Assembly (NCBI GenBank): GCA_016869145.1
Contig: VGEU01000016.1
Coordinates: forward strand, 1 to 45,167
DNA length: 45,167 bases
DNA from: Alphaproteobacteria bacterium
GTDB lineage: Bacteria > Pseudomonadota > Alphaproteobacteria > MPNO01 > VGEU01
Direction: 5' to 3'
A model generated the notes under the pieces. The model saw only the letters and a program-made list of their open reading frames with translations. It searched no databases and was not told the origin of the DNA. How positions within the stretch are numbered: position 1 is the stretch's first letter; the number at the start of each line of letters is the position of its first letter. Position numbers and translations under genes: made by a program. Of the stretch, positions 33,507 through 38,788 are shown in pieces.

Positions 33507-34394
33507 TCAGGCGGCGCGCTCGAGGACCGTGGTGCGGCGCATGTCGCGGCGATGGACGGTGTCGTCGAAGAGTGTGCCCCGGTGCATGGTCGCGAGATTG
33601 TCCCAGATCACGAGATCGCCGGCCCGCCAGCGATGGCGGTAGACGAGCTCGGGCCGGGTCGCGTGCTCGGTGAGCGCGCGGAGGAGGGCTCGGCCCTCCG
33701 CGATCGGCATGCCGAGAATGTGCGAGGCGTGCGAGGCGAGGTAGAGCGAGTTCCGCGTCGCGCCCCGGCGCATGTGGACGAGGCGGTGATGCGCCGGCGG
33801 GCGCGTCATCTTCTCCGCCTCCGACACCTCGCTCAGCCCGCCCAGCGCCCGCGAATACCAGATCGAGTGCTCGGCGACGAGGTCCGTGATCCGCGCCTTG
33901 GTCGCCGCGGGGAGCGTGTCATGGGCCGCACGCATGTCGGCGAACTCGGTATCGGCGCCCGACGGCGGCACGACATGGGCGTTGAGGAAGGAGAACGTCG
34001 CGCGGTTGTCGTCGAAGGAGACGTCGGTGTGCCAGAGCTCGTTGCCCTTGTTGAAGGCGCGTCGCCGGTCGCCGGCGGCGAGGATACGGCCCTCCTCGTC
34101 GAGATTGCCGACATCGACGAGCTCGGGGTAGCGCATCCGTATTGTCGCCTTGCCGGTGTCGGCGCGGCCCAGCATGTTGAGCATCTTCATCTGTTGCAGT
34201 GGGCCGAAGCGGCCGGTGAAGGCGATCTGCTCCTCGTCGCCGAGCGGCACGGCGTTCCGGATCACCGTCACGGCGTTCCGGATAAACGCCGCCTCGAGCG
34301 CATCGCGCGCGCGGTCGTCGAAGGGATCGCGCGGGTCGAGGCCGGTGATCTCGGCGCCGAACAAGGGATGGAGCTTGGTCTCGGTCCAGGTCAT
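33507..34394 (-). CDS. TauD/TfdA-type 2-oxoglutarate dioxygenase
   Basis: The 295-residue protein has the iron facial triad of the family: H122 and D124 in LWHTDVSF and the distal histidine about 271 in ATMHRGT. An arginine shortly after (RRDMRRTTVLE) is placed to bind 2-oxoglutarate. GDLVIWDN is also typical. It begins MTWTETKLHPLFGAEITGLD, like TfdA-type enzymes. It would hydroxylate an unactivated carbon, often next to a heteroatom. Its ATG lies 17 bases after the hyuB stop; the long frame through hyuB is not real. Placement in a catabolic operon suggests it helps remove a side group from the operon substrate. Confidence 0.9.
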   Translation of the reverse strand: MTWTETKLHPLFGAEITGLDPRDPFDDRARDALEAAFIRNAVTVIRNAVPLGDEEQIAFTGRFGPLQQMKMLNMLGRADTGKATIRMRYPELVDVGNLDEEGRILAAGDRRRAFNKGNELWHTDVSFDDNRATFSFLNAHVVPPSGADTEFADMRAAHDTLPAATKARITDLVAEHSIWYSRALGGLSEVSEAEKMTRPPAHHRLVHMRRGATRNSLYLASHASHILGMPIAEGRALLRALTEHATRPELVYRHRWRAGDLVIWDNLATMHRGTLFDDTVHRRDMRRTTVLERAA

Positions 34395-34411: not shown

Positions 34412-36613
34412 CTATTCCGCGGCGGCGCGCGGTGCGGCGCGGCGTCCGTCGGCGAGCACAGTGTCGTAGAGGATCGGATCGTCCTTCCGCCGCACCTGGG
34501 TCGCGAGCTGGTGCGCGCAGGCCGGGCAGAAGAACTCGCGCACCACGATCTCGCCGACGAGGCCGAAGCGGTTCCACGGGCTCAGCCGGTCGATCGCGGT
34601 CTCGCGCACGGCCGCCCCGGATTTGGGGTCGTCGTGGCCGGCGCAGAGGACCGTGCCGCAGTCCTGGCAGGCGAACACCGAGCCGGCGTCGGTGTCGACG
34701 AGCGCGACCGCGTCGGCGATGCGGAGAACCGCCTGGTCGAGCGCGACGCGCCGGATCGGGCGATCGGATGCGGGCGGGCGCGCCTCGGCGAGGCGGGCCT
34801 GCCGGATCGCGTGGCGGGCGGTCTCGGTCGCGGCGGCGTCGATCGCGCCGGACGGATCGAGGACGACGCCGTGCACCGCGCGCGCGACCGCGGCCGAGAC
34901 GAGCCCGGCCTCGACGTCCTTCGCGACCGCGTCCGGCTGACGCTTCAAGGGATCGCCATAGCCGCCGCCGCCCGTCGTCATCATGACGATCGCATCGGCG
35001 GGCGCGACGGGCGTTCGTTCCTTGGCGGCGAGCGCGACGAGGTGTCCGCCCGCCTCCTCGATCGAGGCCGGCATGCGCCCGGCGGTGAAGCCCGCGGCGA
35101 GGTCGGCCGCGCGGAGGAGGAGACGCACCTGCACGCTCGACGGATAGCCGCCCGAGAGCCCCTGCGCTTCCGGCTGGCTCGCGCCGTGGCAGAGGACGGT
35201 GAGATCGATCGGGCCGTCGGCGCGGTGCGGCACGATCATCGCCTCGGTGCCGACGCCGCCGCGATAGCGGCCGGGGCCGCCGGAATCGGGCGCCTGGCGG
35301 CGATAGACATAGAGGATCGGGTACTACGCCTCGTAAGTCTCGACATTGGCGATCCCCATCGCCGGCGTGCCGGGAAGCCCGCCCGTGTCGGGCCCGTCCT
35401 TCCAGCTCCGCGCGCCGCCGCCGCCGGCCTGGTCGAGGAGGACGGCGGTGAACGGCCGTCCGTCGTCGTGGTGGCCGGCCATGGTCGAGCCGAGCCAGGC
35501 CGGCGTCCAGTTGGCCTGGATCTCCTCGCGCAAGGGCGAGCACGACAGCATCTTGGCGATCGCGAGCGAGGTGACGTGCGAGGTCGCGAAGGTGGCCGAG
35601 ATCGTCGCCATGCTGACCGCGGCCGGGTGGCGCGCGTTGTTGATCGTGCCTTCCTCCGACACGATCTCGACGAGCGGCATGATGCCGCCCGGCGACCACG
35701 GCATGTCGTAGCACAGCATCGGCATGATCGCCGACAGGATGCCGCTCTCGAGCCCGACGCGGGTGCAGTTGATGCTGCCGCGCGCCTGCTTCGCGGTGCC
35801 GGTGAAGTCGAACTTGAGCCGCGCGCCGGTCTTGGTCATCGCGAGCCGGATGCGGTAGAGCGTGTTGGTGTTGCCGTCGTGGTCGAGGAAGCCCTCGACG
35901 GTCCAGGTGCCGTCGGGCAGCCCCTCGAGACGGCGCGCGAGCGAGTCCTCGGTCAGCGCGAGAATGCGCGTCTGCACCGCGAGGAAGGCGTCGAGCCCGT
36001 ATTCGGTGATCACCTCGTGGATGCGCTGGCGGGTGCGGTTGATCGCAGCGACGCGGGCGCGGAGGTCGAGGCCGTTGAGCTGGCTGGTGCGCGAATTGCG
36101 GATCACCCAGGCCTCGATGTCGTCGCGGATCTTCCCCTTCTCGACCATGCGCACGGGCGGGATCAGCGGCGGCTCGCCGAACACGTCGGGCGTGCCGACG
36201 GTGAAGCTCCCCGGGTTGGGGCCGCCGACGTCGACCTCGTGCATGGCGAGCCCGGTCCAGCACACCAGCCGGCCCTCCCAGAAGATCGGCGCCACCATCA
36301 GGATGTCGTTCTGGTGCGCCGAGCCGGCCCACGGGTCGTTGGTGACGAACGCATCGCCCTCGGCGAAGCCGAGGCTCTCGCCGAAGCGCGCGATCACGGT
36401 CTGGACCGCGACGTTGAGGCAGAGCGAGAGCCGGGTGACGTAGACGCCGATGAACAGGCTGTCGCCCTCGGGCGTGAGGAGCGCGGTGTTGAAGTCCTTC
36501 GCCTCGTAGACGACGGGCGAGCCCGAGAGCTGCGCCGCGACGCGCCCCTGCTCGTCGTTGATCATCCACAAACGGTGGCGCAGCACCTCGACGGTGATCG
36601 GATCGATCGTCAT
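34412..36613 (-). pseudogene. hyuB: HyuB fused to an acetone-carboxylase-gamma-like domain, with one in-frame amber stop
   Basis: The first part (36613 to 35327) is hydantoinase B/oxoprolinase/acetone-carboxylase-alpha-like, beginning MTIDPITVEVLRHRLWMINDEQGRV, with FVTNDPWAGSAHQNDI and VGGPNPGSF. At 35326–35324 a TAG stop interrupts it after NVETYEA. The same frame continues as YPILYVYRRQAPDSGGPGRYRGGVG, exactly as in intact HyuB. The second part then adds a C-terminal zinc-ribbon-like domain with CQDC and CPAC pairs, resembling the gamma subunit of acetone/acetophenone carboxylases. The downstream part could restart at ATG 35239. The intact protein would have about 732 residues. Its start overlaps the hyuA stop by four bases. 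It may be a pseudogene, a readthrough product or a sequencing error. Confidence 0.88.
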
Positions 36614-38742
36614 CGCTCGGCTCCCGGGACGCCCGGCTCGACGGCCACGTCGAGGACGACATTACCATAGGCATCGACCGCGGCCGACGCGAAGGCCGGC
36701 AAGACGATGGTATCGCCCATCCGCTCGACCACCGCGGGGCCGGCGAGCCGCATGCCGGGGCGGAGCCGCTCGCCGTCATAGATCGCGGTCGCGACGGCCC
36801 GGCCGAGGTCGGGGAAATGGACCGGGCGCGTGCCCGTGGCGGCGGGCGCCGGGTCGGCGGGCGCAAGCGTCGCGCTCGGCGCGAGGCGCGGCGTCACGGT
36901 CGCGGCCCGGCCGTCGAGCTTGAGCTTCAGGATCTCGATCCCGGCGGCGCGGTAGCCCGCGCTCTCACCGTAGAGCGCGTGGTACTGGTGCTCGAAGGCC
37001 GCGATCAGCTGGTCCTGGTCGTCGGCGCCGATGTCGTCCTCCAGGCGCACCGGAAGCGCCGTCGGCTGCATGCGGTACTTGACGTGGACGAAGGCCTCGA
37101 AGGCTCGGTCGGCGGGCGCGATCGCCTCGGCATCGAACAGCCGGTCGAGCCGGCCGCGCAGCTCGGCGAAGCGCGCGACCATGCCGGCCCACCCGGCCGC
37201 CGCCATTGGCAGCGCGCGCGGGAACGAGATCTCGGCCGAATGGAGAATGCCGCCGGTCAGCATGCCGACGGCGGAGAACACGGTGGCGAAGGACGGGACA
37301 TAGACCCGCCCGATGCGGAGCTCGCGCGCGAGATAGGCGATATGGAGCGCCGCCGCGCCGCCATAGGCGAACAGCACGAAGTCGCGCGGGTCGCGGCCAC
37401 GGTCGATCGAGCTCCGGCGCATCAGATCGGCCATATGTGCGTTGACGATGCGGAACGCGCCGGAGGCGACCGCGAGCCGGTCGATCCCGAGCCGGCGCGC
37501 AATCCGGTCGACGGCCTGTTCCGCGGCGCCGGCGTCGAGCGCCATCGTGCCGCCGACGAGCCCGGCGCCGCCGAGGAAACCGAGGACGAGGTTGACGTCC
37601 GTCACCGTCGGTGCGGCGCCGCCGCGGCTGTAGCAGGCCGGGCCGGGGAAGGCGCCCGCGCTCTCCGGTCCGACGCGGAGAAGCCCGTTGTCGTCGACCC
37701 ACACGATGCTGCCGCCGCCGGCGCCGATCGATTCGACCGCGACCTTGGGGAAGAGATAGCTGTACTGGGCGACCACCGGCTCCTCGTCGAGGACGGTCTG
37801 GCCGCGCTCGATCAGGCTCACGTCGAAGGTGGTGCCGCCCATGTCGGCGCAGAGCACGTTGGGCTCGCCGTAGACCGCGCCGAAATAGCGTGCGCCGAGG
37901 ACGCCCGACACCGGCCCCGAATCGAGCGTCAGCAGCGGGCGCACGCGCACCTCCTCCATGGTCGTGAGCCCGCCCATGCAGTGCGCGAGGAGGAGGGGAT
38001 AGCGGTAGCCGAGCGCGCCGAGCCGGCCGGCGAGCCGCTCGAGATAGCGCGTCACCGCCGGCCCGACATAGGCGTTGGCGACCGTCGTCACGGTGCGCTC
38101 GTACTCGCCGAGGACGGGTGCGAGCGCGTGCGAGGCCGAGACGTAGAGATCGGGCCGCCGGGCGCGCAGACGGTCGAGGACGCGCGCCTCGTGCGCGTCG
38201 TTGAGGAACGACCATAGGAACGAGACCGCGACCGCCTCGACGCCCTCGGCCGCGAGCCGGTCGATCGCGCGGTCGATCTCGTCGTCCTCGAGCGCGACGA
38301 CGACCGCGCCCAGCCGGTCGATCCGCTCGGTGAGGCCGAACACCCGTCGGCGCGGCACGATCGGCGGGTCGGCCTTGTCGAGGCGGGCCTGGTGCGTCAT
38401 CGCGCGCTCGGACTGGCCGGCGACCTTCTGCACGACCTTGCCGATGAAGATCGCGTCCTCGTGGCCCTTGGTGGTGAGGAGCGCGGTCGGCACGCCCTTC
38501 CTCTCGACCATCGCGTTGGTCGCGATCGTGCAGCCGTGGACGAACAGCCGGCAGTCGGCGAGAAGCGCCTCGGTCGCGACGCCGAGCCGCGCCGCCGCCG
38601 CGGCGACGGCCTCGATCACGCCCTCGGCCGGATCGTCGCGGGTCGAGGTGGCCTTGGCGATCGCGGCGATCCGGCCGCCGTCGTCGAGGACGGCGCAGTC
38701 GGTGAAGGTGCCGCCGATGTCGATGCCGATATAGACGCCCAT
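36610..38742 (-). CDS. hyuA: Hydantoinase/oxoprolinase/acetone carboxylase-type ATPase subunit HyuA
   Basis: The 710-residue protein begins MGVYIGIDIGGTFTDCAVLDD, the actin-like ATPase phosphate loop. A second ATP-loop region is VLCADMGGTTFDVSLIERG, and later blocks are SIGAGGGSIVWVDDNGLLRVGPESAGAFPGPACY and FGGAGLVGG. With HyuB it would drive ATP-dependent hydrolysis of a lactam or imide ring (hydantoinase, oxoprolinase) or carboxylation of a ketone. An alternative TTG start at 38778 is less likely. It is followed by hyuB with an ATGA overlap. Confidence 0.94.
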   Translation of the reverse strand: MGVYIGIDIGGTFTDCAVLDDGGRIAAIAKATSTRDDPAEGVIEAVAAAAARLGVATEALLADCRLFVHGCTIATNAMVERKGVPTALLTTKGHEDAIFIGKVVQKVAGQSERAMTHQARLDKADPPIVPRRRVFGLTERIDRLGAVVVALEDDEIDRAIDRLAAEGVEAVAVSFLWSFLNDAHEARVLDRLRARRPDLYVSASHALAPVLGEYERTVTTVANAYVGPAVTRYLERLAGRLGALGYRYPLLLAHCMGGLTTMEEVRVRPLLTLDSGPVSGVLGARYFGAVYGEPNVLCADMGGTTFDVSLIERGQTVLDEEPVVAQYSYLFPKVAVESIGAGGGSIVWVDDNGLLRVGPESAGAFPGPACYSRGGAAPTVTDVNLVLGFLGGAGLVGGTMALDAGAAEQAVDRIARRLGIDRLAVASGAFRIVNAHMADLMRRSSIDRGRDPRDFVLFAYGGAAALHIAYLARELRIGRVYVPSFATVFSAVGMLTGGILHSAEISFPRALPMAAAGWAGMVARFAELRGRLDRLFDAEAIAPADRAFEAFVHVKYRMQPTALPVRLEDDIGADDQDQLIAAFEHQYHALYGESAGYRAAGIEILKLKLDGRAATVTPRLAPSATLAPADPAPAATGTRPVHFPDLGRAVATAIYDGERLRPGMRLAGPAVVERMGDTIVLPAFASAAVDAYGNVVLDVAVEPGVPGAER

Positions 38743-38788
38743 CGCGCCGATATCAGCAGCGACCAGGGGCGCGGTCAATGCCGCCGGC

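Follow-up and report, generated by a model that had tools for sequence, protein, structure and literature searches.

A probable recent nonsense allele in a hyuB-like gene with a fused AcxC-like tail from an uncultured alphaproteobacterium

Could a lone stop codon inside an otherwise intact bacterial gene be a fresh mutation, a codon that is read through, or an error of the assembly? This question is raised by a hyuB-like gene in the window analysed here, that is, the whole 45,167-nucleotide stretch that makes up contig C16 of a draft metagenome-assembled genome (MAG). The source organism is an uncultured alphaproteobacterium in a family related to Defluviicoccus, and its genome comprises 3.93 Mb in 247 contigs and is 99.2% complete. 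The GC content is 69%, at which chance long open reading frames (ORFs) are common. A first-pass annotation had described a HyuB–AcxC-like gene split by a single TAG but otherwise intact, and had left all three options standing.

The hyuB-like frame runs along the minus strand for 733 codons, from the ATG at 36613 to the terminal TAG at 34414..34412. Its sole internal stop is the TAG at 35326..35324, and no frameshift was found (Table 1). Consequently, the annotation was right that about 300 open codons follow this TAG, the exact number being 303 up to the terminal TAG, and that 2.2 kb of sequence contain no further lesion. The read-through frame matches the Pfam profile PF02538 (Hydantoinase_B) over its residues 4-555 in one stretch that spans the stop (profile 1-519 of 519), with 385.9 bits against a gathering threshold of 26.8, so the frame as a whole is a full-length member of this family and the description of one split gene holds. 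The downstream part carries the GGGGYGDP motif in its HyuB end and two Cys pairs in its tail. The label "AcxC-like" for the tail stands with a qualification: PF08882 (Acetone_carb_G, acetone carboxylase gamma) exceeds its cut-off in the downstream ORF, weakly (21.6 vs. 21.0 bits, profile 6-101 of 113), and was not listed when the whole read-through protein was scanned at E 0.001. Judged by these profile scores, the predicted membership is marginal.

Table 1. Features of the hyuB-like locus in the window, and single in-frame stops at other loci (sign after the position, strand)
Feature	Position	Strand	Remark
hyuA-like partner (Hydantoinase_A), intact	36610..38778	-	4 bp overlap with hyuB start
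Upstream part of hyuB-like gene, 429 codons	35327..36613	-	HyuB domain profile 1-412 of 519
In-frame TAG interrupting the hyuB-like gene	35324..35326	-	codon 430
Downstream part, 303 codons, HyuB end and AcxC-like tail	34412..35323	-	terminal TAG 34414..34412
Sole post-stop restart ORF, 275 aa	34412..35239	-	first in-frame start ATG, 28 codons downstream of stop
TauD-family dioxygenase gene	33507..34394	-	start 17 bp past terminal TAG of hyuB-like gene
Single in-frame stops, conserved and mostly accessory genes	L117 4085-, L154 889+, L101 11333+, L138 1115-, L094 9624+, L093 3600+
Single in-frame stops, further	L093 4272+, L093 15240-, L105 5353-, L102 15922-, L152 15478-
Single in-frame TAA stops	L110 14638-, L125 19637+

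Within the tauD gene, ARAGORN calls a tRNA-Thr(GGT) at 33631-33708 of the window, which the Rfam tRNA model does not list; it is probably a false call.

Seven full-length homologues of the same architecture were found, three in Defluviicoccus MAGs (67% identity to the hyuB-like protein over 728-737 residues) and four in Chloroflexi MAGs (44-55%). None of the seven has an internal stop. Their homology extends past the TAG in both directions, which marks the downstream frame as genuine coding sequence rather than a chance ORF. The unbroken homologues also argue against a natural two-gene split, the case that the first-pass annotation had named as counting against its claim. Such a split would mean two cooperating polypeptides, the second translated from the ATG at 35239, and the restart ORF is indeed present. 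However, such a break lies inside the HyuB domain, and neither piece would contain a stretch of 28 conserved codons (YPILYVYRR...RGG). Moreover, only a GAGG lies upstream of this ATG, at 2 nt, too near for an ordinary ribosome-binding site, and a well-placed one is absent. A natural split thus has a negligible probability.

At the position of the TAG, for which an alignment of homologues had been proposed, the three closest homologues have Glu (GAA), three others Leu and one His, while the paralogues show Lys, Gln, Thr, Asn, Glu, Arg and others. Codon 430 is a variable, non-catalytic site, and a special residue there gets no support from the alignment. It should be noted that hyuA lies directly upstream of the hyuB homologue in every homologous locus that extends to this point; neither tauD nor dctP was detected beside the homologues. 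The combination of HyuB with a fused AcxC-like tail and an adjoining hyuA occurs in Defluviicoccus-related and Chloroflexi/Dehalococcoidia MAGs, and horizontal spread of the fused gene is possible. In one Dehalococcoidia MAG, a separate second AcxC-like coding piece is located downstream of the fused gene (L005:4945-5118).

Then, how old is the lesion? Per-region identity to an outgroup homologue (L004) was compared between the source genome (G000) and an intact Defluviicoccus protein (L001). The values are 64.8% vs. 65.1% for residues 1-428, 48.8% vs. 54.0% for the region just past the stop, 47.1% vs. 40.7% for the linker and 41.5% vs. 41.5% for the AcxC-like tail, where both Cys pairs are retained. 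Upstream and downstream of the TAG alike, the interrupted gene thus keeps pace with its intact relatives and shows no acceleration, which points to a young lesion. In addition, a random substitution in this gene creates a stop with a probability of 2.35%, and the absence of a second stop in 733 codons limits the neutral divergence to less than about 0.058 per site (95%). On these comparisons the lesion would be young, or else not real, and the earlier suggestion of a recent event is borne out by both the relative rates and the lack of a second lesion. Belinky et al. (2021; PMC7918605) concluded that in-frame stops in bacterial genes generally last no longer than polymorphisms within a population.

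Is TAG still read as a stop in this organism? The RF1 gene prfA is present (508.6 bits against a curated cut-off of 423.25), and TAG terminates 152 of the 595 long coding-like ORFs in 1.46 Mb, including the hyuB-like gene. The proposed search for suppressor tRNAs yielded no CUA-anticodon tRNA among the 38 tRNAs of the draft, an incomplete set from which several standard tRNAs are also missing, and ARAGORN found no further one on 1.4 Mb of genome stretches. For the pyrrolysyl-tRNA synthetase (PylRS) there is only a sub-threshold match (28.6 vs. 178.15 bits), located in a protein that, by inspection, reads as a threonyl-tRNA synthetase. These results bear on a real but leaky TAG, where near-cognate or suppressed readthrough would still yield some full-length protein. 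The even evolution of both flanks would fit such leakiness, and Belinky et al. (2021; PMC7918605) put forward low-level readthrough for many in-frame stops of bacteria. However, RF1 is present and a CUA tRNA was not found, the stop is common to no relative, and the variable site carries no functional residue, so that a leaky codon seems quite unlikely. Still less credit is given to a lineage-wide form, in which amber codons in accessory genes would be tolerated in unusual numbers because RF1 is weak or a suppressor has escaped detection; if it were true, small amounts of full-length HyuB and of a dozen other proteins would still be produced.

The genome contains other stops of this kind. Over 1.46 Mb, or 37% of the genome, we searched for stops flanked on each side by in-frame coding sequence, and the strict set contains 12 (10 TAG and 2 TAA), the hyuB-like one included, or 8.2 per Mb. 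In the control G011, a related MAG with the same GC content, no strict stop occurs in 0.40 Mb where 3.3 would be expected at the source-genome rate, a difference that is suggestive only; G007, with a GC content of 50%, is unsuitable as a control for codon scans. The genes bearing single stops are conserved and mostly accessory. The Pfam domains that run across a stop are GGDEF, MBOAT, Na/H exchanger (2 stops), DUF547, subtilase, TctC, SLT, alpha/beta hydrolase, cell-wall hydrolase and LonB-type AAA. For a second, divergent FtsH, sequence matches run across the stop, and the canonical FtsH copy is intact. Either real gene decay or consensus errors may be the cause of these stops.

More than ten in-frame TAGs in conserved domains within 37% of a genome, among them those in FtsH, GGDEF, DUF547, MBOAT and the antiporter, raised amber recoding as a candidate, with TAG decoded throughout the lineage as pyrrolysine or a standard amino acid. 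However, the homologues have different residues at these sites: Glu at the TAG of FtsH (10 of 10 homologues among the matches listed), Gln for DUF547 (3/3), Ser for the S8 protease subtilase (2/2), Ser/Thr for the TPP enzyme, Ser and Gln for the Na/H antiporter (one homologue), Lys for Slt (one homologue), Ala/Asp/Glu for the AMP ligase and Ala for TctC. At the TAA stops they have Phe (GlgB) and Leu/Ser (Lon). As the residues differ even where conservation is high, TAG cannot have one meaning as a sense codon, and the pattern is that expected from random one-step nonsense changes. Furthermore, the codon usage of the genome leads to an estimate that a random single-base change to a stop would yield TAG in about 69% of cases, TAA in 16% and TGA in 15%, so a majority of TAG is to be expected. 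An excess of TAG in same-frame stop pairs (31/78 vs. 152/595 terminators) was also considered and set aside as weak, since the TAG:TAA ratio is similar (31:5 vs. 152:23); the low TGA count in such pairs probably arises from genes ending in TGA, whose stop is frequently part of an ATGA overlap with a following gene in a different frame. With RF1 present, PylRS absent, no CUA tRNA found, and TAG a common terminator that also ends the hyuB-like gene, a sense-decoded TAG is highly improbable. Indeed, the authors of Codetta noted that in-frame stops of pseudogenes can mimic reassignment, and that the bacterial reassignments known before their screen all concern UGA (PMC8629427).

The first few targets (Glu, Ser and Tyr, guessed from motifs) hinted at GC-to-TA changes from oxidation or a mutator. 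This idea was dropped, because Gln, at DUF547 and at one site of the antiporter, and Lys, at Slt, call for other changes, and because MutY and the main MutM of the source genome are intact. In a second MutM/Nei-like gene (G000:C83:4737-5536; L223, L224), the fpg profile matches two adjoining pieces in different frames, and this gene may be frameshifted. In the related single-contig genome G007, a TGA lies in a Rieske-type motif, VNRCAH*GNLVC (L183:8522), where homologues have Arg/Lys. A plasmid search for locus L086 gave no match.

Could the TAG exist only in the assembled sequence? An error of the metagenome consensus, or a minority-strain base that entered it, would leave the gene intact in the population. 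The draft state of the MAG, with its 247 contigs and an estimated contamination of 2.7%, is consistent with this, and so are the otherwise perfect frame, which evolves like its intact relatives, and the further isolated nonsense codons in otherwise intact genes, at 8.2 per Mb against none in the 0.40 Mb of G011. However, if all 12 strict cases were errors, and 2.4% of substitutions in coding sequence make a stop, the consensus would have to contain some 3-4 errors in every 10,000 bases, which seems high for a short-read consensus. The identified cases lie in accessory or duplicated genes (the second FtsH, TctC, Slt, MBOAT, GGDEF, GlgB), the pattern that selection on real mutations would leave. 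An excess of frameshifts is also absent (3 vs. 3 in a homology-based count that is noisy, with antisense ORFs among the queries). A consensus error is consequently the main rival, unlikely in itself and less likely than a fresh nonsense change.

Taken together, a recent single-base nonsense substitution in a formerly functional HyuB-like gene, seen in the genome consensus, is the probable explanation. Of the three options left by the first-pass annotation it is the favoured one, while decoding of the TAG as sense is disfavoured by RF1, the tRNAs and PylRS. The lone stop, the unbroken homologues, the lack of a second lesion or of acceleration, the presence of RF1 and the failure to find a suppressor tRNA all support it, and intact orthologues together with one disabling codon make the gene a candidate pseudogene by nonsense mutation. 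One counter-point is that the rest of the gene shows no decay, whereas a pseudogene without expression would eventually accumulate some. As the event may be pictured, one base change recently turned a sense codon at position 430 into TAG, where RF1 would terminate translation. The product would be a 429-residue fragment missing the whole tail and the final fifth of its HyuB domain. In cells carrying the allele, the HyuA/HyuB-type enzyme would therefore most likely be inactive.

The finding thus probably amounts to a single nonsense allele, in an accessory gene of an organism that is uncultured, which is ordinary. It also carries a caution: in a GC-rich genome, where one-base nonsense changes mostly give TAG, a run of in-frame TAGs can mimic amber recoding, and the homologue residue at each TAG is a quick way to tell the two apart. 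The in-frame-stop alleles of Belinky et al. (2021; PMC7918605) are likewise single young stops in constrained genes, not common to relatives; the hyuB-like stop differs in being known from a single genome. Among the ATP-dependent enzymes of HyuA/HyuB type, we compared caprolactamase CapAB (6yra), acetophenone carboxylase ApcD (5l9w), acetone carboxylase alpha (5m45, 5svb) and N-methylhydantoinase (7hk5). The HyuB part aligns over nearly its full length with CapB, ApcD and acetone carboxylase alpha, and the hyuA partner adjoins. The fused HyuB–AcxC-like protein matched none of the NCBIfam equivalogs at cut-off, scoring 206.5 bits against 1000 for CapB and 194.9 bits against 1500 for ApcD. In contrast to the enzymes compared, the hyuB-like gene has the AcxC-like domain fused at its C-terminus and is interrupted by the TAG.
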